A stretch of DNA of 64,000 bases from Actinoalloteichus hoggarensis (lineage in GTDB: Bacteria > Actinomycetota > Actinomycetes > Mycobacteriales > Pseudonocardiaceae): positions 3,720,001 to 3,784,000 of the forward strand of contig NZ_CP022521.1 of assembly GCF_002234535.1 (NCBI RefSeq), given 5' to 3'. A program made the translations under genes and the position numbers. The notes under the pieces were generated by a model that made no database searches, was not told where the DNA came from, and worked only from the letters and a program-made list of their open reading frames with translations. Below are positions 31,337 through 48,347 of this stretch, piece by piece. Position 1 is the first letter of the stretch, and every line of letters starts with the position of its first letter.

Positions 31337-32392
31337 TCAGAGCTTCACCAGCACCTTGCCCCGGTTGGCGTCCCGATTCACGTACAGGCTGCGATAGGCG
31401 TCGGGGATGTCGTCGAAGCCCTCCCGGACGGTCTGGTCGTAGTGGATCTCGCCCCGACGGACCATGCCGCCCAGCTCCTCATGCAGGGCCGCCCAGTTCT
31501 GCTCGGTGAACCACTCCAACGAGAAGATCCCGCGGATCGTGGTGCGGGGGAACATGATGTACGGCAGCAGCCGAGGACCGACGTGGTCGGCGCCGACCTG
31601 CGTGGCCCACTGCCAGCACACCGCCACCTGACTGTCGACGTTGAGCATCGAGAACGCCACGTCGGTGAGCGTGCCGCCCAGGCTGTCGAAGTACTTGTCG
31701 ATGCCGTCGGGTGCCGCGGCCGACAACGCCGCCCGCACCGTCTCGGCCTCGTCGCCCTGGCGGTAGTCCACCACCGTGTCGAAGCCGAGACCGATCAGAT
31801 ACTCCGCCTTGCTCGGCGAGCCGGTGGTGCCGATCACTCGCGCGCCCGCCCGCATCGCGAGCTGGCCGACCAGTGAGCCGAGCGCGCCGGAGGCCCCGCT
31901 GACCAGGACGGTGTCGCCGGATCGGATCGTCATGAACTTGGTCAGCGTCCCCCAGGCGGTCATGCCCGGCCCGCCCAGGACGCTCAGCGCCGTGGAGATC
32001 GGCAGCCGCTCGTCGTAGTCGGCCGGGTCGAGGCGGCGGTACGCGGGGAACACCATCGGGAAGGTCCCGGTCTGCCACAGTGCGGGGCTGCCGTTGCTCA
32101 CGACGTGACTGCGCCAGCCGCCGAAGCCCTGCACCAGGTCACCCGGTCGATGCGGCGCGGCGGGCCCCGCCTCGATCACCTCCATGATCGAGTCCGCGCC
32201 CATGTGATCGCCGATCGGCGTGTCCAACGCGATGCCCTGCAGGTAGGGGTCGACGGACACGTACAGCGTCCGCAGCAGCATCTCATCGTCCTTCAAGACG
32301 ACGTCCACGTCCTCGGTCACCTTCTCGTAGACCCGTCGTACGTCGGGGACGCCCTGGAGATGTTCGGCGACGATCCACTTGTCGATCTTCAC
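31337..32392 (-). CDS. MDR/zinc-free alcohol dehydrogenase-like reductase of the PTM operon
   Basis: A 351-residue NADP-dependent medium-chain reductase of the leukotriene B4 dehydrogenase/CurA type. It starts VKIDKWIVAEHLQGVPDVRR and has the NADPH motif VSGASGALGSLVGQLA near residue 155; zinc ligands are absent. It occupies the FtdE/IkaC/OX4 position of PTM operons, where the homologue in ikarugamycin synthesis reductively closes the inner ring of the carbacycle. The GTG at 32392 (AAGGAGCGAA upstream) overlaps the stop of the FAD oxidoreductase by 4 nt. It is the last gene of the operon. Confidence 0.88.
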   Translation of the reverse strand: MKIDKWIVAEHLQGVPDVRRVYEKVTEDVDVVLKDDEMLLRTLYVSVDPYLQGIALDTPIGDHMGADSIMEVIEAGPAAPHRPGDLVQGFGGWRSHVVSNGSPALWQTGTFPMVFPAYRRLDPADYDERLPISTALSVLGGPGMTAWGTLTKFMTIRSGDTVLVSGASGALGSLVGQLAMRAGARVIGTTGSPSKAEYLIGLGFDTVVDYRQGDEAETVRAALSAAAPDGIDKYFDSLGGTLTDVAFSMLNVDSQVAVCWQWATQVGADHVGPRLLPYIMFPRTTIRGIFSLEWFTEQNWAALHEELGGMVRRGEIHYDQTVREGFDDIPDAYRSLYVNRDANRGKVLVKL

Positions 32393-34143
32393 TTCGCTCC
32401 TTGTCCTGCAGACCGTGATCCTGCGGTGACGGGGACGGGCTCGGGCTCGGCGGCGGGCTGCCGCCGAGGCGGCCCCACCGGGATGACGACATGCGTGGGC
32501 GGCGGCTTCGTCTCGTCGATCGAGGCGGTGAACTCGCGGCGGTCGTCCCGGCAGATGAACTGCATGACGTGCCTGCCCGCCGCCGCCGCGCGAATGAGTC
32601 CGCCGGTGGTGGCCCAGACGCCGGAGAAGTAGAAGTTCTTCAACCCCGGCAGGCCGGGCCCGTACTTGCGGACCAGGACCTCCAGCGTCTCGCCGCTCTC
32701 CACGAACGGCTGCCAGCCCAGCACGGTGCCGTCGTAGTTGCCGGTGTAGCGCACCTGCGTGAGCGGGCTGGACATGTCCCGCACCGCGACGGCGTCGGTG
32801 AGGCCGGGGTACCGCTTCTCCAGGAATCGGAGGATGGCGTTGCGCACCTGCCGCTTGGCCTGGTGATAGTCGCGCCCGTGCCGGACCGGCAGGGTGTGCA
32901 GCTCCTCGCCCTTGCGAATCCGACTCGCCTGCTCCGGTCCGTCGTTGAGTTCGCGCCACGGAGCGATGTCGCAGAAGTACGTGGCGTAGACGACGCTCGT
33001 CGACTCCGGCGACAGCTCCGGGTAGTGCATGCTGCGGAACTGCACGTTCATGCTGGCGTGGCGGATGCCGATCATGTCGGCCGCCTCGTCCTCGGTGAGC
33101 AGATACGTGGTGCACGGCTCGCCCTCGGGGAACGGACGACGCAACCCGAGGAAGAGGATGAAGTAGCCGGGGAAGACCATCCCCGGCTCCTCGATGGTCT
33201 GGGTGTAGAGCTTGCGGTACTCGTCGTTGAGGTAGCGGCCGCCCAGGAACTTCATCGTCGTGGTGTGGCCGTCGGCGGCCGAGACCACGATGTCGGCGCG
33301 GAACTCCTGTCCGTCGCTGAGCCGGACACCGACCGCCTGATCGTCCTCGACGATCACCTCCTCGACCTTGGCGTTGTAGGTGACCTCGCCACCGAGCCGC
33401 TGGTAGCGCTCCTCGATCGACCGGGCCAGCCCCATCGACCCGCCCTCCGGCACGCCCGCCGACAGGTTCGCGTGCGAGGCGAGCTGGAAGTAGTTCGGGA
33501 GCACCGGGAAGGCCGGATGCCGCTCGTACAGGATGAAGTTGAAGGCCTCCCGCAGCAGCGGATGCCGGAACTTCGCCGAGTAGTCCGACATCAGGACGGT
33601 GATCGACTTGCGGACCACGTTGACGTACGGGAGGTAGCGGGACAGCATCCGCCAACGCTCGGTGGTCTTCATCAGGCCGACGGGCTTGAGGAACGGATAC
33701 ACCGCGAGCGCCTTCTTGAACTTGCGCAGGCCGTCGCAGAAGTCGCGGATGTGCCGGGCGTCCTCGGGCGAGATGTCGGTCAGATGCGCCTGGAGCCGGT
33801 CGGGGTCGGAGTAGAAGTACACCGCCTGCCCGTCTCGGCCGCGCACGATGTTGAAGACGTCGAAGTGCCGCATCTCCTTGCCCTGCAGCGCCCCGAGTTC
33901 GAGCCAGATCTGGTGCATCTCGTTGCCGGGTCCGTTGCCCAGCAGCCAGCTGATGCAGCAGTCGAAGGTGAAGTTGCCCCGATCCCAGGACGTGCAGCAG
34001 CCGCCGGGGAACTCGTGCATCTCGAAGATCCGGCTCTCGTAGCCGTTCATCTGCGCATAGCAGCCGGTGGAGAGTCCGCCGAGGCCCGCGCCGATGATGA
34101 TCATCGTCTTCCTCGGCCGTGTCGGTGTGGTGGTGCGTGGCAT
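32389..34143 (-). CDS. Phytoene-desaturase-like FAD oxidoreductase 2 of the PTM operon
   Basis: A 584-residue flavoprotein with an N-terminal dinucleotide motif (MIIIGAGLGGLSTGCYAQMN), then HEFPGGCCTSWDRGNFTFDC, and the C-terminal FAD motif LKNFYFSGVWATTGGLIRAA. It belongs to the CrtI-related enzymes that reduce and cyclise the polyene chains in PTM assembly (FtdC/FtdD, OX1-OX3, IkaB). It is about 40% similar by eye to the enzyme encoded just upstream, so the pair arose by old duplication. GAGGAGCAGACAC precedes the ATG. The C-terminal 40 residues are Pro/Arg-rich and probably disordered. Confidence 0.9.
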   Translation of the reverse strand: MPRTTTPTRPRKTMIIIGAGLGGLSTGCYAQMNGYESRIFEMHEFPGGCCTSWDRGNFTFDCCISWLLGNGPGNEMHQIWLELGALQGKEMRHFDVFNIVRGRDGQAVYFYSDPDRLQAHLTDISPEDARHIRDFCDGLRKFKKALAVYPFLKPVGLMKTTERWRMLSRYLPYVNVVRKSITVLMSDYSAKFRHPLLREAFNFILYERHPAFPVLPNYFQLASHANLSAGVPEGGSMGLARSIEERYQRLGGEVTYNAKVEEVIVEDDQAVGVRLSDGQEFRADIVVSAADGHTTTMKFLGGRYLNDEYRKLYTQTIEEPGMVFPGYFILFLGLRRPFPEGEPCTTYLLTEDEAADMIGIRHASMNVQFRSMHYPELSPESTSVVYATYFCDIAPWRELNDGPEQASRIRKGEELHTLPVRHGRDYHQAKRQVRNAILRFLEKRYPGLTDAVAVRDMSSPLTQVRYTGNYDGTVLGWQPFVESGETLEVLVRKYGPGLPGLKNFYFSGVWATTGGLIRAAAAGRHVMQFICRDDRREFTASIDETKPPPTHVVIPVGPPRRQPAAEPEPVPVTAGSRSAGQGAK

Positions 34144-34176
34144 GTGTCTGCTCCTCGGAGTTGACGCCTCGTTCGG

Positions 34177-35844
34177 TTACTGCACGGGCCGGGAGTCGAG
34201 CTGCGGAAGGTGGCCGAGTTTGGCGGGATGCCACGGCTCGGCGGGCGGGCTCTCCCAGGCCTGGAACTCCAGACCCAGCTCCTCACACAGGAACTGCGTG
34301 ACGAATCGCCCGGTGGAGGCGGCGCGGATGAGACCACCCAGGCCGACCCACTGGCCCGCCATCGAGAAGGCGTGCAGGCCCGGCAGCCGCATGTGCTCCT
34401 TGTTGATCAGCCTGGCCGCGAGGTCGTCGGCATCGGAGAAGGCCTTCCAGGCGAGGATGCTGCCCTCGTGATTGCCGGTGTAACGATGGGTGGTCGCCGG
34501 CGTGGCGACGTCCACGAGTTCGATGCGGTCGGTGAGGTCGGGCATCCGACGGAGCAGCATGCCTCGGACGAAGTCGGCGACCTCGCGCTTGCGATCCCAG
34601 TACTCGCGACGATTGGTGGTGCGCAGCGTCTTCCAGTACGAGTAGTCGCTGAAGTAGGTGCAGTGGATCACCGACTTGCCCGCAGGCGCGAAGCCGTCGG
34701 AGTACTGGGAGCGCAGCTGCACCACGATGCTGTTCTGCAGCGCGCCGGGCAGGCGGGCACCCTCGGAGTCGGACAGCAGATACGTGGTGCTGTGCATCTG
34801 ATCCGGATGGAAGTCGCCCTCGATGCCGACGAAGGCCGAGACCACGGCCGGGAACAGCGTCCCCGGCCTGGTCAGCAGCTCGTCGTAGAGACGGTCGATC
34901 GTCGGACCCGTGTAGCGTCCCTCCAACAGGTCGTAGATCGTGGTGCGTCCGTCGCAGGCCGCGACGACGTGATCGGCGTAGATCCGCTGGCCGTTCTTCA
35001 GTTCGACACCGATCGCCCGGTCGTCCTCCACCAGGATCCGCGCGACACGCGCCCGATAGGAGATGTCCCCGCCCAACGCCGTGTAGCGCTCCTCGATCGA
35101 CCGGGACAGGCCCAGCGAGCCGCCCTGGGGGAAGCCCGCGTTGTCGTTATGGGCGCTGGCCATGTTGAACAGGAACGGCAGGAGAGGGAAGTCCTCCGGG
35201 TCCTGGAAGAAGATGTTGCGGAACGCCTTGCGCAGCAGCGGATCGCTGAAGCGGTCGGCGAAGGTGTGCATCTGCGTCGCGGCGGTCCGCCAGAACAGGC
35301 GGAAGGCGGGCAGGACGGTGCGAAGCTTCTTGAGCTTCTGACCGACGCTCTCCAACGGCGGCGGCGTCAGGAAGGGGTACAGGTCGATGGTGATGAAGCG
35401 CCGCAGGTCCCGACAGAACGCCTGGATGAGCTTCCGATCCGCGGGCGAGATCGCCAGCAGGTGCGCCTCCAGCCGGTCGGGGTCGTTGTAGAACGTCACC
35501 GACCGGCCGTCGGCGTCGACGACCTTGTTGAACACCGGGAAGTTGCGCATCGTCTTGCCGTCGAGCGCCCCGAGCTCCCGCCACACCTGGTTGGCGTCAT
35601 TGCCCTCGGCGGTGCCGATCAGCCATTCGATGCAGTAGTCGAAGATGTAGCCGTCCCGGGACCAGGCGGTGCAGCAGCCGCCCGGCAGCACGTGCTTCTC
35701 CAGGATGCGGGTCTCCATCCCGCTCATCTGGGCGTAGCAGCCGGTGGACATCCCGGCCACTCCCGCCCCGATGATCAGCACCCTGGGCCTGGCGCCCGCA
35801 GGGCGGTCTCGACTGCCCCACCCGGCGACGAGGTCACGCGCCAC
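34177..35844 (-). CDS. Phytoene-desaturase-like FAD oxidoreductase 1 of the PTM operon
   Basis: A protein of about 555 residues with the FAD motif VLIIGAGVAGMSTGCYAQMS, KHVLPGGCCTAWSRDGYIFD and C-terminal GLHAFSMAGQWVGLGGLIRA. It is the first of two CrtI-like enzymes, the counterpart of FtdC/IkaB, thought to form the outer ring(s) of the tetramate macrolactam by hydride addition to the polyene. I chose the GTG at 35844 because AGGAGG lies 8 nt before it, inside the end of the PKS-NRPS gene (11-nt overlap); a GTG at 35853 is also in frame. Confidence 0.9.
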   Translation of the reverse strand: MARDLVAGWGSRDRPAGARPRVLIIGAGVAGMSTGCYAQMSGMETRILEKHVLPGGCCTAWSRDGYIFDYCIEWLIGTAEGNDANQVWRELGALDGKTMRNFPVFNKVVDADGRSVTFYNDPDRLEAHLLAISPADRKLIQAFCRDLRRFITIDLYPFLTPPPLESVGQKLKKLRTVLPAFRLFWRTAATQMHTFADRFSDPLLRKAFRNIFFQDPEDFPLLPFLFNMASAHNDNAGFPQGGSLGLSRSIEERYTALGGDISYRARVARILVEDDRAIGVELKNGQRIYADHVVAACDGRTTIYDLLEGRYTGPTIDRLYDELLTRPGTLFPAVVSAFVGIEGDFHPDQMHSTTYLLSDSEGARLPGALQNSIVVQLRSQYSDGFAPAGKSVIHCTYFSDYSYWKTLRTTNRREYWDRKREVADFVRGMLLRRMPDLTDRIELVDVATPATTHRYTGNHEGSILAWKAFSDADDLAARLINKEHMRLPGLHAFSMAGQWVGLGGLIRAASTGRFVTQFLCEELGLEFQAWESPPAEPWHPAKLGHLPQLDSRPVQ

Positions 35845-38800
35845 TGAATCCACCTCCTGTGAGGATCTCCCTGGTCAGATCGGCGTTGCCCGCGAGAAAG
35901 CCCTCGTCGAGCATCTCGGCGTGGCTGCCGAAGCCCCGGAACACCGAGGTGCTCGTGGTCGAGGTGCCGTGCCAGGTGCCGCGCTGCGCGGCGCCGTAGA
36001 ACTCGACCTTCTGCTCGTCGGAGATCACGCTGACCGAGGCGTCGAGGACGCCGAGGTTCGGTGTGCGACTGCAGAAGCGGATGTAGTCCCTGGCCTGCTC
36101 AAGCGTCTCCTCCGTGAGGATCTCCGAGCCGGTGTGCCTGCGCAGGTGCTCGCCGAGCTCCTTCTCGAAGGCCTCGAAGCGCTCGCTGCCCAACTCGAAG
36201 GCCTCGGGGATCCGATACGAGTCCATGATCACCACGTTCGGGACGGTGCGTCCCCTGGACTCCAGGACCTTCGCGACGTCGAAGGCGAGGTTCCCGCCCA
36301 GCGAGTAGCCGAACAGCGGGCACGGTCCCTCGGGCTGCAGTTCCTCGATGAGGTCCGCGTACTGCGTCACCTTGTCGTCCCCCGGCAGGTAGTTGAAGGC
36401 GACGAACTCGTGTTCCGGGAGGTGGGCGGCGAACCGGCGGTAGATCAGGCCGTGTCCGCCCGCGGGCGGGAAGCAGAACACCGTCGGACCCTGGCCGGGG
36501 TTGAATCGCAGGTAGGGGCGGGCGCCCTCGAGTTTGCCGGTGACGATGTGCTCCACGGTCCTGGCCATGCCGCGCAGGGTGGTGACGGTGAACAGCTGAC
36601 TGACGGGAATGCTGATGCCGAACTCCGCCTGGAGGTGGTAGATCAGCTCGATCAGCCGGATGGAACTGCCGCCCGACGCGAAGAAGTCGTGCCGCAGCCC
36701 CACCTGGTCGAGGCCGAGCAGCGACTTCCAGTGTTCGGCCATCCGGACCTCGTAGAGGGTCACCGGCGGCTCGTACTCCTGCTCGTCGTGCTCGGCGCTC
36801 GGCGCGGGCAGGGCGGCGAGGTCGACCTTGCCGTTGGGCGAGAGAGGCAGCTCCGCCAGCTCGACGAGATGCGTGGGGATCATGAACGTCGGCAGCCGTT
36901 CGGCGAGGTGGCTGCGCAGGTCACGCAGGTCCAGTCGCGTGCCCGCGGCCGGAATGCAGTAGGCGCACAGGGTCTGTTCTCCCCTGGCGTCCGGTCGTAC
37001 CGTCACGACGGCCTGGGCCAGCTTCGGCCAGTCGGCCAGCTGCGACTCGATCTCGCCGATCTCGATCCGATGGCCGCGGACCTTGACCTGGCCGTCGACC
37101 CGGCCGAGAAGCTGCACACGCCCCTCGGCGTCCCACCGCGCCAGGTCCCCGGTGCGGTACAACCGCATCGGCCCGGCGGCGGGCTCGGCGCCCGGCCCGG
37201 CGGCCGCCGCCGTTCCCGACGGCCGGTCGTCGACGGACTCCCGAGGATCGCCGCCGTGCGGCCGGTCGGCGAGGGTCGCATCGAGTGCGATGAGGCCGTG
37301 GTCCGGCGACCACTCGACGAAGCGCCGCGCCGTCTGCTCCGGGTCGCTCGGATAGCCGGTGGCCACGCCGTCCCCGCCGACCCACAGTTCGCCGGGGACG
37401 CCCACCGGCACCGGTTGGGCGTGCTCGTCGAGGATGTACAGCGTGCTGTTGGGCAGGGGCCTGCCGATGGGAACCATCTGGCTCGGCTCCAGACCGTCGA
37501 CCGGGCCCTCGAAGTAGGCGCTGTCGATGGTCGCCTCGCTCAACCCGTAGGAGTTGACCACCCTGGTCCGCGGCCCGCACAGCCCGCGAAGCCGCTGATA
37601 CTCCTCGACCTTCCAGGCGTCGGAGCCGACGATCAGCAGGCGCAGGAAGTCCAGTCGCAGTCCCTCGTGGTCGCAGAAGTTCATCAGGGCCCGGACCACC
37701 GCGGGGACGAACTCTCCGCAGTCGACCCTCTCGGCGAGCATCGTCCGATGCAGCCGCTCGGTGTCGAACAGCAGCTCGCGTGTGACCAGGACCAGCGTGC
37801 CCCCGGAGCACAGCGCGCGGACGAGGTCGCCGGTGAAGACGTCGAAGGAGAAGCTCGCCATCTGCAGGTGCACCCGGACGTCGATGTCCAGGCCGTACTC
37901 GCCGCGCCAGGAGTCGTAGGCCGTGGCGAGGCTGTGGTGGGCGACCTCCACCGCCTTGGGCCTGCCGGTGGAGCCCGAGGTGTAGATCAGGTAGGCGGGC
38001 GCCGCCGGGTCGACGGGTTCGGCGGGCAGCGGCGGTACGCTCGCCGCCTCGTCGAGCAGGTCCTCCAGGGTGTGCACGTCGGCGGCGGCCAGGCCCGCGA
38101 GCCGGTCCCGCCGGGCGGCGTCGACGACGGCGAACGCGGCGTCGGCGGTGCGGACCATGAAGGCCAGCCGGTCGGTGGGGTGGTCGGGGTCCAGGGGCAG
38201 GTAGGCGCCGCCCGCCTTGAGCACCGCCAGCACGGCGACGACGAGGTCCGGCGACTTGTCCAGGCACAGCGCCACCACGGAGCCGGGCCCGACGCCCAGG
38301 GCGCGCAGCCTGCCCGCCAGCCGGGCGGCCCGATCGTCGAGTTCGCCGTAGGTCAGCCGGTGCGACGTCCGTGTCTCGGCCGACCCGGCCGCGGCGGGCG
38401 GCAGCGACACGGCGAGGGCGTCGGGACGCTCGGCGGCATGCCTGCCGATCAGCTCGTGCACCGGCACCGCCTGCTCGACGACGCGGCCCGCGCCGCTGAA
38501 CTCGCCGAGGATGCGGCGGCGTTCCTCGGCTCCGAGCAGGTCGAGACGGTGGATCGGCGTCGACGAGGGCGCCCGCGTCAACGACTCCAGCACCGTGACG
38601 TAGTGCGATGCCATTCGCCGCATCGTCTCGGGAAGGAAGAGGTCGGTGTTGTACTTGAAGACACAGTGGAAGCGCTGGTCGGCCTCCTCCTCGTAGACCG
38701 ACAGCGTGAGGTCGAACTGGCCCTCCTCCTCGGGCAGCTCGATGTAGTCCAGTCGGTAGCCGTACTTCTCGGTGGCGACCTTGTGGACGAGCAGGATGAA

Positions 38801-41800
38801 CATCGCCTGGAACACCGCGGAGCGGCTCGGATCGTGCTGCAGCCCGAGCTTGTCGACCAGCAGCACGAACGGGTACTCCTGGTTGTCGAGTCCGTTGAGC
38901 ACGGTGGCCCGCACCTGCGCCAGCAGCTCCGTGACCGACGGGGCACCCGCCAGGTCGACGTACAGCGGCAGCGGGTTGACGAAGTAGCCGTAGACCGAGG
39001 AGAACTCCTTCTGGGTCCTGCCGGTCACCGGGCTGCCCACGATGACGTCGTCCTGCCCGGTGTAGCGGTGCAGCAGCACGTAGTAGGCGCTCATCAGGAC
39101 CATGAACACCGTGACGTCGTGCTCCCGCGCCAGCGCGTGGACGCGGGCGCTCAGGTCGACGTCCAGGGCGAAGAACTCCGAGGCCCCGTTGTAGGTCTGC
39201 ACGACCGGCCGCGGCTTGTCCGTCGGGAGGTTGAGGATCGGGACCTCGGCGGGCAGGTGGCCCCGCCAGTAGTCGAGCATCCGCTGTGCCTCCCGGCCCG
39301 CCAGGAACCGGTTCTGCCAGTTGAGGAAGTCCAGGTAGCTCGCCGACGGCGGCACCAGCTCGACCCGGCGCCCCTCGCGCAGGCCCTCGTACACCTCGAG
39401 CAGCTCCTCGATGAAGGTGAACGTCGAGATGGCGTCGGAGACGATGTGGTGCACCGCCTTCACGATCACCCAGCGGTCGTCGGCGCGTTTGAACAGCCGG
39501 AACCTGATCAGCGGGTCGCGTTCGAGGTCGTAGGGCTTGCGGTACTCCTGGATGATCAGCTGGTAGACGTCGTCCCAGTCCCGGCCCACGACGTCGAACA
39601 GGGCGATGTCGTCGGGGATCTCGTCGACCTCGCGCAACACCTGCACCGGCCTGCCCTCGTGCAGCGTGAAGTTGGCCCGCAGGCTGGGGTGTCGGGCGAT
39701 CACCGTCCGCACCGCCTGGAACATCAGCTCCGGTTCGAGCCGGACCCGCACCTCCACGGCGCCGCCGATGTTGTAGGCGAAGCCGTCGGGGCTGAGCTGC
39801 TTGAGGAACCACAGCGCCGTCTGGTTCTGTGTGAGCGGATGCCGTCGCTCGTCGTCGTAGAGCTCGACCGCGTCGGCCGCCGCGTGGTCCTCGCCCTCGG
39901 CGACCAGTTCGACGAGTCCGTCGTGAAGCTGGGCGACGGCGTCGCTGATCGGCGCGCTGCTCAGCAGCGCCACCACCGGCAGCGCGACCTTCAGTTCGGT
40001 GTGAATCCTGGCGCGCAGCTCCATCGCCAGCAGCGAGTCCAGGCCCAGCGCGCCGAGGCTGATCGCGGGGTCGACCTGTTCGGTCTTCACCCGCAGCACC
40101 GCGGCGACCACCGCCGTGAAGTGCTCGGTCAGCAGCAGTCGCCGCTTCTCCTCGTCGGCGTCGCGGAAGGCGTCCAGGAAGCTGTTGCCGTCGGAGGCGG
40201 GCTCGGCGGCAGAGGAGGCCAGCTCGGCCACCAGCGTCGGCGGCGTGGGGTACCAGGCGAGGAAGACGGGCCAGTCCACCACCGTGGCGACCAGCAGCTG
40301 CGCCCGATCCTGCCCGATGACCCGTTCGAGGACGGCCATGCCCGCGTCGGGGGACAGCGAACTCATCCCTCGGCTGTTGCGGTAGTGGTCGATCAGGCCG
40401 AGTTCCTCGATCATGCCGGTGGCCCACGGGCCCCAGTCGATGCTCAGGGCGGGCAGCCCCACCGCCCGTCGGTGATGCGCCAGGGCGTCGAGGAAGGCGT
40501 TGCCCGCCGCGTAGTTGGTCTGGCCCGCGGTGGTGAGCAGCGAGGCCACCGAGGCGAAGAGCACGAAGTGGTCGAGCGGCTCGTCGCGCAGGTGGTGGTG
40601 CAGGAGGTAGGCGCCGATCACCTTCGGATCGTGGACGGCGTCGAAGACGGCGCGGTCCATGTCGGCGACGAGGGTGTCGCGCACGTGACCGGCGAGGTGG
40701 AACACGCCCCGGATCGGCACGGAGGTGGTCGCCCGATACTCGGCGAGCCACGTCGTCAGCGCCGCCTCGTCGGTGATGTCCAGCGGTGCGAGGATCGTCT
40801 CGGCGCCCGCCGCGGCCAGCTCGGTCAGCAGGCGCACGCCTCGACCGGCCGGGGTGTCCGGGTCGACCTCGTGCCATCGGTCGCGTTCGGGGAGTCGGGT
40901 GCGGCCGACCAGGATCAGCCTGCGGGCGCCCCTGGCGACGAGGGTCCGACACAGCAGCCTGCCGAGGGCGCCGAAGGCTCCGGTGACCAGGTAGCTGCCG
41001 TCGGGCCGCAGCCGCAGCGGCAGCGGACGGGTCAGGTCCTCGGCCGTGACGAGTCTGCTGGTGCGGCGCCCGTCGGCCCGGAGGGCGATCTCGTCCTCGT
41101 CGGTGATGGACACCTCGCGCAGCAGGGCCCGTGCCTCCGCGTGGCGCGCGTCCGCCGAGCGGTCGCCCGAGCCGTCGAGGTCGATGAGCTTGCCCCGGTA
41201 CGGGATCAGCTCCTGGTTCCACAGCACCCGTCCGACGCCCCAGGCGGGGGCGCCGAGCGGCTCGACGACGTCGGTCGGTGACGCGGCCTGCGTGCCCCGC
41301 GTCACGACGTGCAGCCTGCCCGCCGCCACCGAGTCGTCGTGGTCCTGCGCGGCCAGGGTCTGCGCCAGCGCGATGAGCGAGTACGTGCCGAGGCTCTCCT
41401 GGGCGGTGAGCGCCGAGCGGCTGGTGTCCGTCAACGACGGCAGGTCCAGGTTCCAGAGGTGCACGATGGTGCCGAAGGACGGCACGCCGCCGTCGCGCAG
41501 CTCGTGGAAGAGTCGGGCGAGGTCCTCGCGGGAACCCGGGTGCACGACGGACTCCCGCCGGTCCGGGGCCAGCGCGTACTCGTCGCCCGGCCGTACCAGG
41601 TGACAGCGACCGCCCCGCGCCGTGACCAGCTCGGCGAGTGCGTCGGCCACTCCCCCGCCGTCGGCGAAGACCAGCCAGTCGGCGGAGACCGGGTCGGCGG
41701 TGCCCAGGGCGTCGCGTCCGTCGTCGACCGCCTCCGCGGGCAGCGGCGCGTCGAACCAGCCGACCTCGGTCAGCCAGCGGTCGATCGTCGCCTGCCCGAC

Positions 41801-44800
41801 GGTCGTGGCCGCCTTCTCGACGTCGGCGGCGCGGAAGCCGCCGATCCGGCCCAGCGCCACGCCGCTGTCGGCGAAGACGACGATGTCGCCGCGCAGTTCG
41901 TCATCCTCACGTCGGGTGACGACGGCGTGCACCCACAGAGGTTGATCACCGACGGGCGCGAAGCGCATCTCGTCGATCGACAGCGGCAGCCGGATGCCGG
42001 TGGACGAGGAGTCGTCTTCCCGGCCGCCGTCGAGAAGCTGAGGGGTGAGCAGGGACTGGAAGCAGGCGTCGAGCAGCGCCGGATGGAAGTGATGCCCGGC
42101 GGCGTCGTCGCCGAGTACCTTCGCGGGGCGGATACGGGCCAGAGCCTCGTCGGCGCCGACCCAGACCTCCTCGATGCACTGGAACGCCGGGCCGTACTCG
42201 TAGCCGAGATCGGCCAGGCCCGAGTAGCACGCCTCGGCGTCGAGGTGTCGGGCGGTGCGAGCGCGGATCGCGTCGGAGTCCAGCCGGGCGGTCAGCCGCC
42301 GCCGCTGCCCGGTGCGCAGGACCCCCGAGGCGTGCACGCTCGGCTCCTGGTCGTCGCCGGTGACCGTGGCGATGGTGAAGCCGGCGTCGGCGCTGGAGAA
42401 GGCGAACTGGACCGTGGTGGCCGCGTCGTCGGCCAGGAACAGCGCCTTGCGCAGCGACACGTCCGCGATGGTGGCCTCGACGCCGCCGGTCATCGCGCGG
42501 ACCGCCTGCACCGCCATCTCCAGGTAGCCGGCCGCCGGGAAGACGACGTTGCCCTGGATGCGGTGGTCGGCCAGGTACGGCGTCGTCTCCACGTCCAGCC
42601 GGGACTCCCAGACCGGTTCGACGTTGAGCATGCGACGGCCGAGCAACGGGTGGTCCACCCTGCCGAGGCGGATCTGCTCGACGGGTGCGGGCTCCACCCA
42701 GTACCGGTCGCGTTTGAAGGGATACCGGGGCAGCGGAACCGACGGCCCTTCGCGGTGCAGCGCCGTCCAGTCGATCTCGACGCCCAGGTTGTGCAGGCTC
42801 GCCAACGACATCGCGATCCGGGCGGCCTCGTCCTCGTTCCGCCGGATCGAGGGCAGCGTCCGACCGTCGGCGTCCCGGGCCTCGAGGCATTCGCGGATCG
42901 AGTGGCCCAGCACCGGATGGGGCCCGATCTCCAGGAAGAGGCCGTGTCCGTCGTCCACCAGCCGGTCGATCGCCGCCTGGAAGCGGACGCTGTCCCGGAC
43001 GTTGTGCCACCAGTAGCTCGCGTCCAGCTCGGTGCCGTGCGCCCGGCCCTCCCGCGCGGTCAGGTAGAGCGGCACCCGCGCCTGCCGCGGCGTGATGTCG
43101 GCCAGCGCGGACAGCAGCTCGTCCTTGATGAGGTCCATCCGCGCGCTGTGATAGGGCACCCGGACGGTGAGGAACTTGGCGAAGACCTGTTCGGAGCGCA
43201 GCGTCTCGGCCAGCTCGGCCAAGGCGTCCTCGTCACCCGCGAGTGTCATGGCCGTCGGGCTGTTGATCGCCGCGATGGACACCCGGTCGCCGTAGGACTC
43301 GATCCGTCGGGTCGCGTCGTCCTCGGTGAGGCTGACGGCCAGCATGGTGCCGGTGTCGACCAGCTTCTGCTGGAGTCGGCTGCGGTGCACGACGACGGTG
43401 ACGGCGTCGCGCAGCGAGTAGACGCCCGCCTCGTAGAACGCCGCGACCTCACCGGTGCTGTGCCCGACGACGGCGTCGGGTCGCACGCCGTAGGACCGCC
43501 AGAGTGCCGCGAGACCGACCTGGACGGCGAAGTTCGCGGGCTGTGCCAGCCAGGTCTCGGCCATGTTCGAGTCGGCCTCGTCGGCGTTCATCTCGGCGAC
43601 CAGCGACCAGCCGGTGAGGGCGGTCAGCTCTCGATCGCACTCGTCGACGGCGGCCCGGTAGACCGGCTCGTTCTCGTAGAGCAGGCGGCCCATCGCCCAC
43701 CACTGCGGTCCCATGCCGGTGAAGGCCCAGACGAGTCGACGGCGGTCCGGCTCCACGACCTGGTCGAGCAGGATGTGCGGATGCGCCTCGCCCGCCAGGA
43801 ACTCGGCCAGCCGCTCGTCGAGCGACTCGCGGGAGGAGTACACGACGGACAGCCGCGACTCGAGGTGCTGGCGGCGATGCGCCAGGGTGCTGCCCACGGC
43901 GGCGAGTGAGGCGGCCACGCCGTCGACGCCCGCCAGTTCCCGCTGGATCCCTCGGACGAGGTCGCCGAACGCCTCCGGGTCCCGCGCGGTCAGCGGCAGG
44001 ATGGAGTAGCCGGGCCGCTGGTCGCCCGCGATCGGCTCCTCGGCGTCCTGGCGAGGCGCCTCCTCCAGCAGGACGTGTGCGTTCGTGCCGCCGAAGCCGA
44101 AGGCGTTCACCCCGGCGCGGGCCGGTCCGTCGTGCACGGGCCAGTCGGTGACCTCGGTGGGGATCTCATACGGCAGCGCCGCGAGGTCGATCGCCGGATT
44201 GACGTGCTCCAGGTTGATGTGCGGCGGGATCTTCCGGTGTTTCAGGCTCAGGGCGACCTTGATGAGCCCGGCGATGCCCGCCGCCGACTCGGTGTGTCCG
44301 ATGTTGGTCTTGACCGAGCCGACGTAGCACGGCGAGTCGGGTTCGCGGCCGATCGCCAGCGCCCGACCGAGCGCGTTGGCCTCCAGCGGGTCGCCGACCG
44401 GGGTGGACGTGCCGTGCGCCTCGACGTACTGCAGGTCACCCGGCGCGATGCCCGCCTCGGCGCACACCCGCTCGATGAGACCGATCTGCGACTCGGGGTT
44501 GGGCACGGTGATGCCGCTGGTGCGGCCGTCCTGGTTGACGCCGCTGCCGATGATGACGGCGTGGATCGGGTCGCCGTCGCGCAGCGCGTCGTCCAGACGT
44601 TTGAGTGCGATCACACCTACTCCCTCGGCACGGACGTAGCCGTTGGCGGAGGCGTCGAAGGTGCGGGATCGCCCGTCGGGCGACAGGAAGCCGCCCTTGG
44701 TCTCGGCGATCGTGTACTGCGGCGTCATGTGCAGGAGCGTTCCGCCCGCCAGCGCCAGGTTCGTCTCCCCGCGACGCAGGCTGCGGCAGGCCAGGTCCAC

Positions 44801-45370
44801 CGCCACCAGCGAGGAGCTGCACGCGGTGTCGATCGAGAGGCTGGGGCCCCGGAAGTCGAAGCAGTAGGAGATCCGGTTCGACACCATCGTCATCATCGTT
44901 CCGGTGGCGGTGTGCGCCGCCAGCGTGTCGAAGGAGAGGTCGGCGAACTGCACGATCTTGTAGTCCAGGGTGAAGGCCCCGACGAACACGCCGACGTCGG
45001 TGCCCGCGAGGTCACCGGGCTTCTGTCCGCCGTCCTCCAGCGCCTCCCAGGCCACCTCGAGCAGCTTGCGCTGCTGCGGGTCCATGTGCTCCGCCTCGCG
45101 CGGGCTGATCCCGAAGAAGGCCGGATCGAACTCGTCGAAGCCGTCGATGTAGCCGCCTCTGCCCCCGACCAGCCTGCCTGGTTTGGCCTTGTCCCGGCTG
45201 CCGAGGCTCCCGACGTCGTATCTGTCCGCCGGTGTCGGCGTGATGCAGTCCTTCCCGTCGAGCAGGTTCTTCCAGAACGTTCGATAGTCCGAGGCGCTAC
45301 CCGGCAGTCGGCAGCCGATACCGATGATCGCGACCTTGTCGCGGGCGGCAGGGTACTGTGATTCCGTCAC
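35834..45370 (-). CDS. Iterative hybrid PKS-NRPS of PTM biosynthesis
   Basis: A megaenzyme of about 3178 residues, KS-AT-DH-KR-ACP-C-A-PCP-TE. KS: DTACSSSL near 180, VEAHGTS near 317, NIGHTESAAG near 355. AT: GHSTGE near 635. DH: DHRIQGNVVFP near 935. KR: TGAFGALG near 1462 and NYAAGN near 1620. ACP: GLDSLLAM near 1777. C: HHIVSDA near 1973. A: YTSGSTGRPK near 2462. PCP: GGSS near 2900. TE: GYSLGG near 3019. There is no ER. By eye the ten A-pocket residues read D-V-G-E-I-G-S-I-D-K, the ornithine code. One module should build two polyene chains iteratively, attach them to both amines of ornithine and release a tetramate. A low-complexity insert of about 45 residues sits before the A-domain motif RLYRTGDLARW. 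The GTG 45370 is preferred (AAGGA upstream) over GTG 45394. Confidence 0.95.
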   Translation of the reverse strand: MTESQYPAARDKVAIIGIGCRLPGSASDYRTFWKNLLDGKDCITPTPADRYDVGSLGSRDKAKPGRLVGGRGGYIDGFDEFDPAFFGISPREAEHMDPQQRKLLEVAWEALEDGGQKPGDLAGTDVGVFVGAFTLDYKIVQFADLSFDTLAAHTATGTMMTMVSNRISYCFDFRGPSLSIDTACSSSLVAVDLACRSLRRGETNLALAGGTLLHMTPQYTIAETKGGFLSPDGRSRTFDASANGYVRAEGVGVIALKRLDDALRDGDPIHAVIIGSGVNQDGRTSGITVPNPESQIGLIERVCAEAGIAPGDLQYVEAHGTSTPVGDPLEANALGRALAIGREPDSPCYVGSVKTNIGHTESAAGIAGLIKVALSLKHRKIPPHINLEHVNPAIDLAALPYEIPTEVTDWPVHDGPARAGVNAFGFGGTNAHVLLEEAPRQDAEEPIAGDQRPGYSILPLTARDPEAFGDLVRGIQRELAGVDGVAASLAAVGSTLAHRRQHLESRLSVVYSSRESLDERLAEFLAGEAHPHILLDQVVEPDRRRLVWAFTGMGPQWWAMGRLLYENEPVYRAAVDECDRELTALTGWSLVAEMNADEADSNMAETWLAQPANFAVQVGLAALWRSYGVRPDAVVGHSTGEVAAFYEAGVYSLRDAVTVVVHRSRLQQKLVDTGTMLAVSLTEDDATRRIESYGDRVSIAAINSPTAMTLAGDEDALAELAETLRSEQVFAKFLTVRVPYHSARMDLIKDELLSALADITPRQARVPLYLTAREGRAHGTELDASYWWHNVRDSVRFQAAIDRLVDDGHGLFLEIGPHPVLGHSIRECLEARDADGRTLPSIRRNEDEAARIAMSLASLHNLGVEIDWTALHREGPSVPLPRYPFKRDRYWVEPAPVEQIRLGRVDHPLLGRRMLNVEPVWESRLDVETTPYLADHRIQGNVVFPAAGYLEMAVQAVRAMTGGVEATIADVSLRKALFLADDAATTVQFAFSSADAGFTIATVTGDDQEPSVHASGVLRTGQRRRLTARLDSDAIRARTARHLDAEACYSGLADLGYEYGPAFQCIEEVWVGADEALARIRPAKVLGDDAAGHHFHPALLDACFQSLLTPQLLDGGREDDSSSTGIRLPLSIDEMRFAPVGDQPLWVHAVVTRREDDELRGDIVVFADSGVALGRIGGFRAADVEKAATTVGQATIDRWLTEVGWFDAPLPAEAVDDGRDALGTADPVSADWLVFADGGGVADALAELVTARGGRCHLVRPGDEYALAPDRRESVVHPGSREDLARLFHELRDGGVPSFGTIVHLWNLDLPSLTDTSRSALTAQESLGTYSLIALAQTLAAQDHDDSVAAGRLHVVTRGTQAASPTDVVEPLGAPAWGVGRVLWNQELIPYRGKLIDLDGSGDRSADARHAEARALLREVSITDEDEIALRADGRRTSRLVTAEDLTRPLPLRLRPDGSYLVTGAFGALGRLLCRTLVARGARRLILVGRTRLPERDRWHEVDPDTPAGRGVRLLTELAAAGAETILAPLDITDEAALTTWLAEYRATTSVPIRGVFHLAGHVRDTLVADMDRAVFDAVHDPKVIGAYLLHHHLRDEPLDHFVLFASVASLLTTAGQTNYAAGNAFLDALAHHRRAVGLPALSIDWGPWATGMIEELGLIDHYRNSRGMSSLSPDAGMAVLERVIGQDRAQLLVATVVDWPVFLAWYPTPPTLVAELASSAAEPASDGNSFLDAFRDADEEKRRLLLTEHFTAVVAAVLRVKTEQVDPAISLGALGLDSLLAMELRARIHTELKVALPVVALLSSAPISDAVAQLHDGLVELVAEGEDHAAADAVELYDDERRHPLTQNQTALWFLKQLSPDGFAYNIGGAVEVRVRLEPELMFQAVRTVIARHPSLRANFTLHEGRPVQVLREVDEIPDDIALFDVVGRDWDDVYQLIIQEYRKPYDLERDPLIRFRLFKRADDRWVIVKAVHHIVSDAISTFTFIEELLEVYEGLREGRRVELVPPSASYLDFLNWQNRFLAGREAQRMLDYWRGHLPAEVPILNLPTDKPRPVVQTYNGASEFFALDVDLSARVHALAREHDVTVFMVLMSAYYVLLHRYTGQDDVIVGSPVTGRTQKEFSSVYGYFVNPLPLYVDLAGAPSVTELLAQVRATVLNGLDNQEYPFVLLVDKLGLQHDPSRSAVFQAMFILLVHKVATEKYGYRLDYIELPEEEGQFDLTLSVYEEEADQRFHCVFKYNTDLFLPETMRRMASHYVTVLESLTRAPSSTPIHRLDLLGAEERRRILGEFSGAGRVVEQAVPVHELIGRHAAERPDALAVSLPPAAAGSAETRTSHRLTYGELDDRAARLAGRLRALGVGPGSVVALCLDKSPDLVVAVLAVLKAGGAYLPLDPDHPTDRLAFMVRTADAAFAVVDAARRDRLAGLAAADVHTLEDLLDEAASVPPLPAEPVDPAAPAYLIYTSGSTGRPKAVEVAHHSLATAYDSWRGEYGLDIDVRVHLQMASFSFDVFTGDLVRALCSGGTLVLVTRELLFDTERLHRTMLAERVDCGEFVPAVVRALMNFCDHEGLRLDFLRLLIVGSDAWKVEEYQRLRGLCGPRTRVVNSYGLSEATIDSAYFEGPVDGLEPSQMVPIGRPLPNSTLYILDEHAQPVPVGVPGELWVGGDGVATGYPSDPEQTARRFVEWSPDHGLIALDATLADRPHGGDPRESVDDRPSGTAAAAGPGAEPAAGPMRLYRTGDLARWDAEGRVQLLGRVDGQVKVRGHRIEIGEIESQLADWPKLAQAVVTVRPDARGEQTLCAYCIPAAGTRLDLRDLRSHLAERLPTFMIPTHLVELAELPLSPNGKVDLAALPAPSAEHDEQEYEPPVTLYEVRMAEHWKSLLGLDQVGLRHDFFASGGSSIRLIELIYHLQAEFGISIPVSQLFTVTTLRGMARTVEHIVTGKLEGARPYLRFNPGQGPTVFCFPPAGGHGLIYRRFAAHLPEHEFVAFNYLPGDDKVTQYADLIEELQPEGPCPLFGYSLGGNLAFDVAKVLESRGRTVPNVVIMDSYRIPEAFELGSERFEAFEKELGEHLRRHTGSEILTEETLEQARDYIRFCSRTPNLGVLDASVSVISDEQKVEFYGAAQRGTWHGTSTTSTSVFRGFGSHAEMLDEGFLAGNADLTREILTGGGFSGA

Positions 45371-45427
45371 CGTGAAATCCTTCGATCGAGGCACTCGTCA
45401 CGAAACAGGGGACAACACTGTCGGCAG

Positions 45428-46423
45428 TCAGTCCGATTCCGTCTTCGTCGCGGATTCGGCCGATGCGGTGGTCGTGTCTGCGGGACTGTCTTCGGCGGCA
45501 GATTTCCGCTGCTTCCGCCAGGGATGCAGCAGGGTGGCGATCAGCGAGGAGGTCTTGGGAAAGGAATCCGGATCGTGCAGGCCGACGGCGGCGGGAACGC
45601 GACCGGGATACCAGGTGAAGCTGCCGAACACTCGGTCCCAGATGGACACGTCGGAACTGAAGTGTCCGGCCTCGTCGAGATCGATGCTGTGGTGCAGCCG
45701 ATGTTGCTCCGGGCTGGCGACGATGTGATTCAGCCAGCCGATTCGGACATCGATGTTGGCGTGCACGAAATAGCCCTGGGCGACGATGAACAGGCCGACC
45801 AGGAACACCGCCGGGTGGGAGAAGCCCACGAGGGCGAGTCCGAGCTGCACGAGCCCCTGGGTCAATGCGATGTCCACGACGTGATTGACGCCGTTGTTGG
45901 CGACGTTGACCTTGTCCGGGACGTGATGGACGCCGTGCAGGCGCCACAGCCAGGCGTGATTGTGCGAGATCCGATGCACCCAGTAGCTCACCAGCGAGCC
46001 GAGGAGCAGGGCCGCGGGAACCTCCAGCCAGATCGGCATCCCCGACTCGGGAACGGCCACGGCGCCGACGAGGGCGGCCACCGGGAGCTGCGCGAGGCCC
46101 CCGCCCAGCATGGTGAGCCCCAGATAGACGCCGTACCATGCCCATTCACTTCGGCTGGGATGCCAGTCCACCTCGTAGGGGATCAGGCGTTCGAAGACGG
46201 CGAGCATACCGATCGTGCCGACCAGGAAACCGAAGTTGACCAGGCCGAAATTCCATCCGAAGTGCAATGCCGCCGTTCCGGTGAGGACCATCGCGGTGAT
46301 CAGCAGCGGATAGGCGACGTGGCAGAGGGGAGATCGAGGTCGAGCCGACTCTGAGTCGGGTTCTCTCTCGACCCGCGACGTCTGTCTTACCGTGTGAGGG
46401 CGAATATTCATGGCGTTGTCCAT
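45428..46423 (-). CDS. Sterol desaturase/fatty acid hydroxylase family enzyme (PTM hydroxylase)
   Basis: A 331-residue membrane di-iron enzyme with four or five helices and the three histidine clusters HRISHNH, HGVHH and HRLHH. It is the first gene of the operon, as the SD gene is in HSAF and ftdA in frontalamide clusters, where the enzyme hydroxylates the ornithine-derived part of the macrolactam. The C-terminus after about residue 300 is a Ser/Ala/Thr-rich tail. I took the ATG at 46423; one at 46411 is also possible. The stop lies 57 nt before the PKS-NRPS start. The operon promoter should lie just upstream, on the minus strand. Confidence 0.9.
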   Translation of the reverse strand: MDNAMNIRPHTVRQTSRVEREPDSESARPRSPLCHVAYPLLITAMVLTGTAALHFGWNFGLVNFGFLVGTIGMLAVFERLIPYEVDWHPSRSEWAWYGVYLGLTMLGGGLAQLPVAALVGAVAVPESGMPIWLEVPAALLLGSLVSYWVHRISHNHAWLWRLHGVHHVPDKVNVANNGVNHVVDIALTQGLVQLGLALVGFSHPAVFLVGLFIVAQGYFVHANIDVRIGWLNHIVASPEQHRLHHSIDLDEAGHFSSDVSIWDRVFGSFTWYPGRVPAAVGLHDPDSFPKTSSLIATLLHPWRKQRKSAAEDSPADTTTASAESATKTESD

Positions 46424-48347
46424 CCACTTCAAGCCACCGGGAACTCCCGGCCAGGCCACCGCCTGCCAGGATGACTGCGAACACGACTGGGCGCGAGAAG
46501 CGCCACGGAATCAGCTTCGAGCCGACGCCCACCCTCGGACTCGATTCGAAAAGCGCAGTAATGACAGTGCACTTCTCGACGGTGACGCGCAAGACTCTTT
46601 TTCGGGTACACCCCTCCAGGTGGTACTCACCGTCTCAATCCTTGATATTCGGCGCAGATCCGCCGATCAGCGGGCAGCCGAGACCGACGCGGGCTTCTCG
46701 GGCCGGACGAGGAGACCGATTCCGGGCAGCCGCGGGCATCGCGTCTGACCGCGGTGTGAGACGCGAGTCGAGGACGGATTCTTCGTGGCCGTCATGCGAC
46801 GAGTCGACGCGGAGCGCCGAGCCGGTCGAGACCCGATCGGCGGATCTCCTCGTCCCGGCGGGGAAGCGGGACGAATCGAGGGACGTCCGCGTCGGGTGGT
46901 CAGTCCGAGTCGAGTCCTCGCTCCCTCTCGGACGCCCGACGACGCCGCCGCCACGCATCGGACGGCGCCGCAGGCCGAGCCGCTGATCCGTCATCGTCGA
47001 CGGCGGTCCTGCCTCCGCCGAGACGCGGCCCGTCTCGGCGACTTCCCCTCGTCGTCGCGAGTCCGACGCACGCCCGCGCCGTCGTCGCAGCCGACCGCTG
47101 ATCGTTCTCAGCACGCGCGGGACCGAGCCCCGACAGGAGTCGATCATCGCGTGCCCACGCCGTCAGTGCCCGGATCCGATCGTCCGCCGACGTCCCCGAC
47201 ACGGGCCCGTCGACGCTCCCCACGGCATCCTGGGACATGATGTCCTCCCCACCGGACCATCACCGAAAGTGTCCGACTCGATGCTAACGGTAGTGGGTTG
47301 GGTTCAGGGATCACCCGATCGGTCATACGTCTGCGGTCAGCCTCGCACCGTAGAGGACTGCTGATCGTCATGACGTGACCGTGACGCCGACGCCGCTCCC
47401 TCGGTCACCGACGGGCAGGCCTGGCGCGCCGAGCCGCCCGGTCCGCATTACGCGACAGCCCTTGTTCGCGACGTCGTTCCGATCTTCCGCACGGACCGAG
47501 GAGTGGCGGCGGCGCCTGCCCGGAAATTGATTCTCGCCACTTCGTGACTCGCGAATTTCGATGTGAGAATCGCCGCCGCGAAGAGGACCCGGCAGCCTCG
47601 CCGCCGGCACCGCCGCACTTGCGCAAACGACACCGCGGAACCACGCCTCCATAACCGGGCCGCGCGGCAGGCCGCGGCTGACTTCGCCCCGCCCGAGACG
47701 GCACCGACCACCGTCCGGGTCACGCACCCCGCACCGTCTCCCCCGCTGGGATCCGCACTCGGCACGGCGCGTTCCTCGGCGCTGAACTGCCCGGACGGTC
47801 TCGACGCACGACATGTCGAATCCGGCCGCCCGCGCAGCCGAGGCCATCTCGACGGGACAGGGACACGACGGCGTCGGCTACGCCACCCCGGAGCAGGTGA
47901 TCGCTCTCGCACCACGACGCTCCGCGTCGTCGAACACGATCCATGCCGCCTCGACGCGAATTACCCGGCTTTGTTCCTCGGATACTTCCACTCGCGGGCG
48001 GGTGACCCCGTCGACGATTCATCAGGCCGCCGTCGAGCCGCGTCCGGTATCACCGGTGAATCGCCGATGATCGAGGCGACGGCCCGCCGCTGCCGGGCTC
48101 CGTTCGCCCGGGACAGGACCGAGCGAACGGACCGCCCGAGGCAGGCGACCACGGCGCCGTACGGCACCGTCGCCGGGCCGGACTCAGGCGCTCGACCCCG
48201 GAACGACGGTGCCGTGACGCCGGTGATCGGAGTGTCGCGTGCGACTCCGGGTCACCGCAGCCGGCCGCCACCGGCTCTCGACTACCCGACGGCAGGCCCT
48301 CGGTTCACCCGGGCGAAGTAGTCACCGCCCGACGCGACGTCACTGCG
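46424..48347. other. 1.9-kb gene-poor region upstream of the PTM operon
   Basis: No complete recognisable gene is present. AT-richer pockets (46540-46660, 47230-47350 and 47515-47575) stand out against the GC-rich background and may hold promoters. At 47527-47568, GATTCTC and GAGAATC form a spaced dyad. One short minus-strand frame has a convincing ribosome site (see the 46900-47238 entry). Confidence 0.5.
46900..47238 (-). CDS. Possible 112-residue protein, unknown
   Basis: The ATG at 47238 is preceded by GGGGAGGACATC, a strong ribosome site, and by an AT-richer patch. The frame begins MSQDAVGSVDGPVSGTSADD and continues with IRALTAWARDDRLLSGLGPA before becoming Arg-rich. It could be a real short gene, or the N-terminus of a decayed one. 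I recognise no domain. Confidence 0.25.
   Translation of the reverse strand: MSQDAVGSVDGPVSGTSADDRIRALTAWARDDRLLSGLGPARAENDQRSAATTARACVGLATTRGSRRDGPRLGGGRTAVDDDGSAARPAAPSDAWRRRRRASERERGLDSD

Follow-up and report, generated by a model that had tools for sequence, protein, structure and literature searches.

An intact P450-free operon, most likely from Actinoalloteichus hoggarensis, predicted to make a 5-5-6 PTM of the dihydromaltophilin/maltophilin type

Introduction

A polycyclic tetramate macrolactam (PTM) operon without a P450 gene raises the question of whether it is a frontalamide-type cluster that has lost its last enzyme, or a complete cluster of another kind. We addressed this question for a locus in a window of 64,000 nucleotides, which is the whole stretch of DNA analysed here (contig NZ_CP022521.1, positions 3,720,001 to 3,784,000) and part of a host genome of 6,606,717 bp in one contig. 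The initial annotation had favoured the first answer and predicted a product lacking the P450 oxidation. We conclude, with a probability of about 0.9, that the window carries an intact operon for a 5-5-6 PTM of the dihydromaltophilin (HSAF)/maltophilin (xanthobaccin A) type, the host most likely being A. hoggarensis. A dihydromaltophilin cluster of A. hoggarensis DSM 45943T is entered as cluster 20 in Table 5 of PMC5676828 (2017), the part of that paper drawn on here; a cluster of this kind thus appears to be in print already for what seems to be the same strain, and the operon is a standard member of a well-studied antifungal family.

Materials and Methods

Of 156 confirmed relatives, the best 80 supplied the comparison loci, so that all counts lean towards close kin and very near records may be absent. 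Loci L031-L117 (87), minus the duplicates L033-L036 (of L056, L072, L070 and L092) and plus L121 and L122, gave 85 loci and the window. The PKS tree holds 83 of these 86 rows, L082, L103 and L112 being too short, and P450 state was scorable in 79 of the 83 (not in L062, L068, L079 and L107). A P450 was counted only if it lay on the PKS strand and within the cluster or <400 bp downstream. Under this rule several loci were scored as without P450: L111, with a divergent upstream FtdF-like P450 (53%), L095, L080 and L090, with a P450 on the opposite strand, L054, whose P450 is 1.6 kb off and on the opposite strand, and four Saccharopolyspora clusters with P450s upstream and on the other strand. 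Trees were built with FastTree or quick IQ-TREE and are unrooted. Papers are cited by PMC number for the excerpts used.

Results

All five genes of the operon are co-directional on the minus strand and together span 31337-46459. The first encodes an SD of the sterol-desaturase/fatty-acid-hydroxylase family (FtdA/SD type, 45428-46459; PF04116, 1.1e-25) with the His motifs HRISH, HGVHH and HRLHH, and the genome holds no second SD match at E <= 1e-5. It is followed by a hybrid PKS-NRPS of 3186 aa (35834-45394) with the Pfam domains KS-AT-DH-KR-ACP-C-A-PCP-TE, in which every active-site motif searched for is present in each domain searched. Next come two CrtI-like FAD enzymes with PF01593/PF13450 matches, OXa (34177-35853; FAD motif GAGVAG) and OXb (32389-34143; GAGLGG), and finally MDR (31337-32392, 351-aa translation), a medium-chain reductase of the PtmC/OX4/FtdE type whose PF00107/PF16884 and NCBIfam searches were run on the shorter ORF 31337-32338. 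None of SD, OXa, OXb and MDR has an NCBIfam match above the curated cut-off; the best such matches of OXa and OXb, all below it, are carotenoid isomerase/CrtI families. The genes are tightly packed: the gaps SD/PKS-NRPS/OXa/OXb are 33, -20 and 33 bp, and the GTG start of MDR at 32392 shares 4 bp with the OXb stop (GTGA). The gene set proposed by the initial annotation for 31337..46423 is therefore real, with the expected Pfam domains and motifs, and its order (SD, PKS-NRPS, OX, OX, MDR) is that of ftdA-E. The upper edge given there, 46423, is an in-frame ATG inside the SD ORF; the first start of that ORF is a GTG at 46459.

The C domain of the synthase finds relatives at 72-77% identity in 7 of 393 other genomes of the class (E <= 1e-60), and every other C-domain match, among the matches listed, is at most 43% identical; given this gap, the PTM match is not due to chance. 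Among named loci, the best 80 of 156 match at 71-79% identity. Two genomes, G407 (fits A. fjordicus) and G408 (fits A. hymeniacidonis), carry these five genes in unchanged order and, as in the window, have an SIP gene downstream; no P450 was found in the 20 kb covered for each. Identity to G407 and G408, respectively, is 90% and 78% for the PKS-NRPS, 86% and 69% for SD, 96% and 85% for OXb, and 100% (rounded) and 99% for 16S. The unbroken PKS-NRPS proteins of the other loci, sampled from the best 80 of 156 relatives, are 62-74% identical.

The ring system was predicted from the OX and MDR enzymes. One branch with support 100 splits the OX tree into two types, with OXa on the PtmB1/OX1-OX2 (DH2) side and OXb on the PtmB2/OX3/IkaB (DH1) side. 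The window thus holds two OX genes, one DH1-type and one DH2-type, and one MDR, and the rule given in PMC6950151 and PMC5705629, as far as the excerpts go, is that two OX plus ADH yield a 5/5/6 ring. Together, gene content, the OX split and this rule support the earlier prediction of a 5-5-6 ring well. In the ten one-OX clusters among the best 80 of 156 relatives, the single OX is always of the OXb type. An ikarugamycin-type product was set aside, as both OXa and OXb are present; SD is not diagnostic here, since seven of the ten one-OX clusters in the same sample have an SD match. The MDR tree would back 5-5-6 more weakly than gene content and the OX clades do. A branch with support 90 sets the ten one-OX MDRs apart; the window MDR lies outside that group and is nearest by path to MDRs of 2-OX and 3-OX clusters. 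However, the smallest large well-supported set around it (25 rows, support 99) mixes rows with two OX (14), one OX (10) and three OX (1), so that 5-5-6 and 5-6-5 chemistry cannot be told apart by MDR kinship alone.

No P450 was found in the window, in line with the initial annotation: both a PF00067 search and a heme-motif scan of the window were empty. That annotation read the locus as a frontalamide-type cluster missing its P450, with a simplified PTM lacking P450 oxidation as the product. This finds some backing in the best 80 of 156 relatives, where a same-strand P450 follows MDR directly in 35 of 49 scorable 2-OX+MDR clusters and is absent from 14, and a missing P450 oxidation could still hold for the C-12 hydroxyl. 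The trees argue the other way. In the PKS tree of this same sample, the window sits in a nine-row clade (support 99) that is wholly P450-free and includes two Lysobacter loci, whereas all 35 P450-bearing 2-OX+MDR clusters fall into one Streptomyces clade of 37 rows (support 100). The OXb tree, again drawn from the best 80 of 156, repeats the P450-free placement with a set of eight rows, all without P450 (support 97). Change counts by themselves do not distinguish P450 gain from loss; the second count gave 2 changes, which may be inflated because L079, whose locus end is cut, was scored as without P450. With the window inside a P450-free clade, we set recent loss aside, and calling the P450 ‘missing’ misleads, since in this sample the FtdF-type P450 after MDR is limited to the one Streptomyces clade. 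Judged from these trees, this branch would ordinarily be P450-free and probably never had the P450.

The prediction about the product is weakened too. The roles proposed for FtdF/PtmE' (14-dehydrogenation and C12 hydroxylation) are given as unverified in the portion of PMC8399814 used here. Moreover, A. hymeniacidonis, the species that the P450-free locus G408 fits, makes xanthobaccin A according to an excerpt of PMC8632820, and xanthobaccin A is equated with maltophilin in PMC5705629. As a compound bearing the 14-ketone proposed for the P450 is reported from a species with a P450-free cluster, it is doubtful that the product of the window lacks that oxidation, and the reading of a truncated frontalamide-type cluster becomes highly improbable.

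A P450 encoded elsewhere might instead finish the molecule in trans, as the initial annotation itself had allowed. The 14-ketone requires some oxidation step, and a genome-wide PF00067 search gave 29 P450 places (fragments merged, hand count), the nearest about 32-33 kb beyond SD. However, a query with the S. griseus FtdF-type P450 found no FtdF orthologue in the genome, the best-scoring hit among the matches listed being 43% identical. Also among the matches listed, genomes with P450-free clusters gave 42% (G407), 42% (G408), 43% (A. caeruleus), 39% (Actinokineospora) and 37% (Saccharothrix). By contrast, two Streptomyces controls gave 80% and 70%, and the genome from which the query came gave 100%. 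The 43% match is thus at background level, we set aside the idea of an FtdF orthologue encoded outside the cluster, and completion in trans is unlikely.

Convergent with the operon lies SIP, a siderophore-interacting protein gene (30031-31092, plus strand; PF08021/PF04954) whose true start may be further in. It adjoins the operon in all three genomes of the genus group. Among the comparison loci it flanks the cluster in L121 and L122 and was not found in the 83 others, A. caeruleus included (drawn from the best 80 of 156 relatives; most of these loci end only about 3 kb beyond MDR, and some are truncated); the idea of SIP as a conserved PTM gene was set aside. The neighbourhood invites the idea that the PTM serves chiefly as an iron-handling metallophore tied functionally to SIP. 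In the sections of PMC8632820 drawn on, xanthobaccin A chelates and reduces iron, and the strain was chosen partly for neighbouring siderophore-interacting genes. Against this stand the 0/83 distribution of SIP and its convergent position outside the operon, which leave the idea with little likelihood; SIP is probably not part of the PTM pathway. The same paper describes a second siderophore-related gene, for a substrate-binding protein, downstream in A. hymeniacidonis; in the window, the roughly 0.4-0.6 kb from SIP to the next ORF compared is too short for such a gene.

Discussion

Our preferred reading remains an intact operon for a dihydromaltophilin/maltophilin-type PTM. Drawing on characterised homologues in papers, we infer iterative use of the single PKS module, by which the PKS-NRPS would incorporate ornithine, build a pair of polyene chains on it and release a tetramate. 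Of the two 5-rings, OXb would then close the first and OXa the second, the latter step with C-14 oxygenation; MDR would reductively close the inner 6-ring, and SD would hydroxylate C-25. Not every PTM is oxygenated at C-14: pactamide A is described without the C-14 OH in an excerpt of PMC6950151. Likely products, by analogy, are a dihydromaltophilin-type compound (C29H40N2O6, m/z ~513.30) and a maltophilin-type compound (C29H38N2O6, m/z ~511.28). Ring pattern and stereochemistry (e.g. the C-10 epimer) are predictions that cannot be read from sequence.

As for the C-14 ketone, we tentatively suggest that in the P450-free branch (Actinoalloteichus, Lysobacter) it might arise from OXa itself or from non-enzymatic oxidation. 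On this speculative proposal, 14-dehydrogenation would not be the essential role of FtdF; the P450 of Streptomyces would have been added later for another function, and the wider family would have recruited it repeatedly. P450-free clusters offer a direct test of the unverified function of the FtdF-type P450, since the very ketone proposed for this enzyme is reported from a P450-free relative.

The gene-order match proposed by the initial annotation holds for the frontalamide and HSAF types but is loose for ikarugamycin, which has one OX only. Ikarugamycin-type clusters (one OX plus MDR) share with the window the PKS-NRPS type and an OXb homologue; they differ in lacking OXa (10/10 clusters among the best 80 of 156) and in the MDR group of their own (support 90). 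Excerpts describe their ring system as 5-6-5 (PMC5705629) and their scaffold as needing only IkaA, IkaB and IkaC, i.e. one OX (PMC11724479). Frontalamide and Streptomyces Group I clusters, with S. griseus L110 as a stand-in, share the order SD, PKS-NRPS, OX, OX, MDR, but MDR is followed in them by an FtdF-type P450, and their synthases form a PKS clade apart from that of the window; with no such P450 found in the window, we do not count it among ftdA-F clusters. The Lysobacter HSAF type is represented by Lysobacter sp. Root690 (L052), in which an extra OXa-type gene brings the OX number to three, against two in the window. It nevertheless combines SD, PKS-NRPS, OX enzymes and MDR (OX4) with no P450 found in L052, and it shares its PKS clade with the window.

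Operon layout and genomic setting

The PTM operon of Actinoalloteichus hoggarensis comprises five compactly arranged genes on the minus strand, all within the window: SD (45428-46459; Pfam FA_hydroxylase), PKS-NRPS (35834-45394; KS, AT, DH, KR, ACP, C, A, PCP and TE), OXa (34177-35853) and OXb (32389-34143), both matching Amino_oxidase and NAD_binding_8, and MDR (31337-32392; ADH_zinc_N). From SD to OXb, neighbouring genes are separated by 33, -20 and 33 bp; the GTG start of MDR overlaps the OXb stop by 4 bp. ORFs and Pfam domains thus bear out the gene order initially proposed (SD, PKS-NRPS, two FAD enzymes, MDR), and all active-site motifs searched for in the operon enzymes are present.

The operon lies in G000:C1:3720001-3784000 of a one-contig genome of 6,606,717 bases; the window has a G+C content of 71.3%, and the published DSM 45943T chromosome has 6607 kbp and 71.15% (PMC5676828). 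The 16S identity is 100% (rounded) to G407, a genome that fits A. fjordicus, 99% to G408, which fits A. hymeniacidonis, and 96-97% to A. caeruleus. Operon DNA identities to G407 and G408 (~87.6% and ~79.3%, rough values from overlapping pieces) fit the published ANI of 85.96% and 79.51% (PMC5676828).

SIP (30031-31092, plus strand), a siderophore-interacting protein gene, adjoins MDR convergently. It is syntenic in G407 and G408 and was not found beside the PTM cluster in the other 83 loci compared; siderophore-interacting genes downstream of PKS-NRPS are described for A. hymeniacidonis (PMC8632820). Among 20 chosen window ORFs, the other flanking matches (GH127 arabinofuranosidase, alpha-L-rhamnosidase, LPMO, an Oxidored_FMN protein, mycothiol-dependent nitroreductase and a radical SAM protein whose C-terminus matches CofH) look unrelated to the PTM pathway, judging by name. 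Beyond SIP, a minus-strand ORF (28865-29659) with no Pfam match is kept in G407 (67%) and G408 (45%). The product of 48348-49436 is an alpha/beta hydrolase resembling macrolide esterases, far under the cut-off of each family listed.

No SD homologue was found in the A. caeruleus and A. spitiensis genomes (E <= 1e-5) despite HSAF being cited from an A. cyanogriseus strain (PMC6950151), which would reflect SD loss or a strain difference. In Streptomyces harbinensis the PTM cluster carries a single OX without an adjoining SD; an SD-like stretch in that genome (G412:C13:229650-230555; 57% identity) carries two in-frame stops.

P450-bearing two-OX+MDR clusters fall in one PTM clade

Profile and motif searches found no P450 in the 64-kb window. 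Among two-OX+MDR clusters, a same-strand P450 directly follows MDR in 35 of 49 scorable cases and is absent from 14. On the unrooted PKS tree, all 35 P450-bearing clusters of this two-OX+MDR set fall in a single 37-row clade (support 100) whose remaining two rows are unscorable and whose named members are Streptomyces, including one titled [Kitasatospora] papulosa. Nine rows, none with a P450, make up the window's own clade (support 99): besides the window, G407, G408, three Streptosporangium, one actinomycete MAG and two Lysobacter. The OXb tree concurs. The initial annotation called the P450 missing: its absence from the window stands, but the whole surrounding clade lacks one. Across all cluster types P450 state requires 4 changes on the PKS tree versus a shuffled mean of 24, counts that cannot separate gain from loss; the simpler explanation is that the P450 was gained inside Streptomyces. 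P450-free clusters were noted earlier in Salinispora arenicola, Actinokineospora, Saccharothrix syringae and two Streptomyces (PMC5705629).

The P450 of frontalamide-type clusters (FtdF, represented by the S. griseus enzyme) shares 32-39% identity with nine P450s found close to other PTM clusters, and those nine reach 68% with one another; this suggests more than one recruitment. In Kitasatospora griseola (L111, about 2458) an FtdF-like P450 (53%) lies just upstream of the PTM cluster on the opposite strand.

A search for a P450 elsewhere, as initially proposed, yielded 29 P450 places in the genome (fragments merged by hand). Among the matches listed, the best-scoring one to FtdF reaches 43%, similar to other genomes with P450-free clusters (G407 and G408, 42% each; A. 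caeruleus, 43%; Actinokineospora, 39%; Saccharothrix, 37%) and below the controls (two Streptomyces, 80% and 70%; the query's own genome, 100%); therefore, no FtdF orthologue was found. It is possible that another P450 acts in trans on the PTM product.

Ring type and expected product

The 86 PTM loci (85 plus the window), drawn largely from the best 80 of 156 confirmed relatives, comprise 50 with two OX+MDR, 16 with two OX, 10 with one OX+MDR, 2 with three OX, 1 with three OX+MDR, 1 with none and 6 cut. A single branch (support 100) of the unrooted tree of 151 OX proteins parts OXa (72) from OXb (79), with the window's two enzymes on opposite sides. Since the sole OX of one-OX clusters is of OXb type in 10/10, OXb corresponds to DH1/IkaB/PtmB2/OX3 and OXa to DH2/PtmB1/OX2, names equated in PMC5705629, PMC6950151 and PMC8399814. 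Published rules assign a 5-5-6 outcome to two OX plus a reductase; the operon is accordingly predicted to form a 5-5-6 ring system, as first proposed. The unrooted MDR tree is weaker evidence than OX content. One-OX MDRs form their own group (support 90), and the MDRs nearest to that of the window belong to clusters with two or three OX; yet the next larger set around the window with good support (25 rows, 99) also includes the ten one-OX MDRs.

According to PMC8399814, neither the 14-dehydrogenation predicted for FtdF nor the C12 hydroxylation predicted for PtmE' is verified. A. hymeniacidonis yields xanthobaccin A (C29H38N2O6), which bears a ketone carbonyl (PMC8632820) and is maltophilin isolated again (PMC5705629). 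This producer is the species that the P450-free locus G408 fits, so P450 absence does not predict ketone absence. The initial expectation of a product lacking the P450 oxidation is therefore doubtful for the ketone, although the C-12 hydroxyl may be absent. Nor is C-14 oxygenation universal, since pactamide A lacks it (PMC6950151). Dihydromaltophilin-type and maltophilin-type compounds are the expected products on this analysis.

Comparison with known clusters

A dihydromaltophilin cluster is already in print for A. hoggarensis: Table 5, row 20 of PMC5676828 lists one there and in A. hymeniacidonis, A. spitiensis and A. cyanogriseus. Group I clusters of Actinoalloteichus strains ADI127-7 and AHMU CJ201 are named in PMC6950151, and maltophilin and dihydromaltophilin are both products of Lysobacter clusters (PMC5705629).

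Streptomyces sp. ISL-100 carries SD and PKS-NRPS with no OX or MDR match within ~7 kb downstream. The PKS-NRPS matches of L077 and L114 come in 5 and 8 pieces, so these copies are either broken or poorly sequenced. In Lysobacter antibioticus HS124 the stretch compared contains two OX and nothing matching MDR, whereas Lysobacter sp. Root690 has three OX plus MDR. An extra OX is unique to Lysobacter according to PMC5705629; in contrast, Streptomyces sp. 8K308 and S. hainanensis, with no MDR match in the stretch compared, carry three OX genes (OXa, OXa, OXb).
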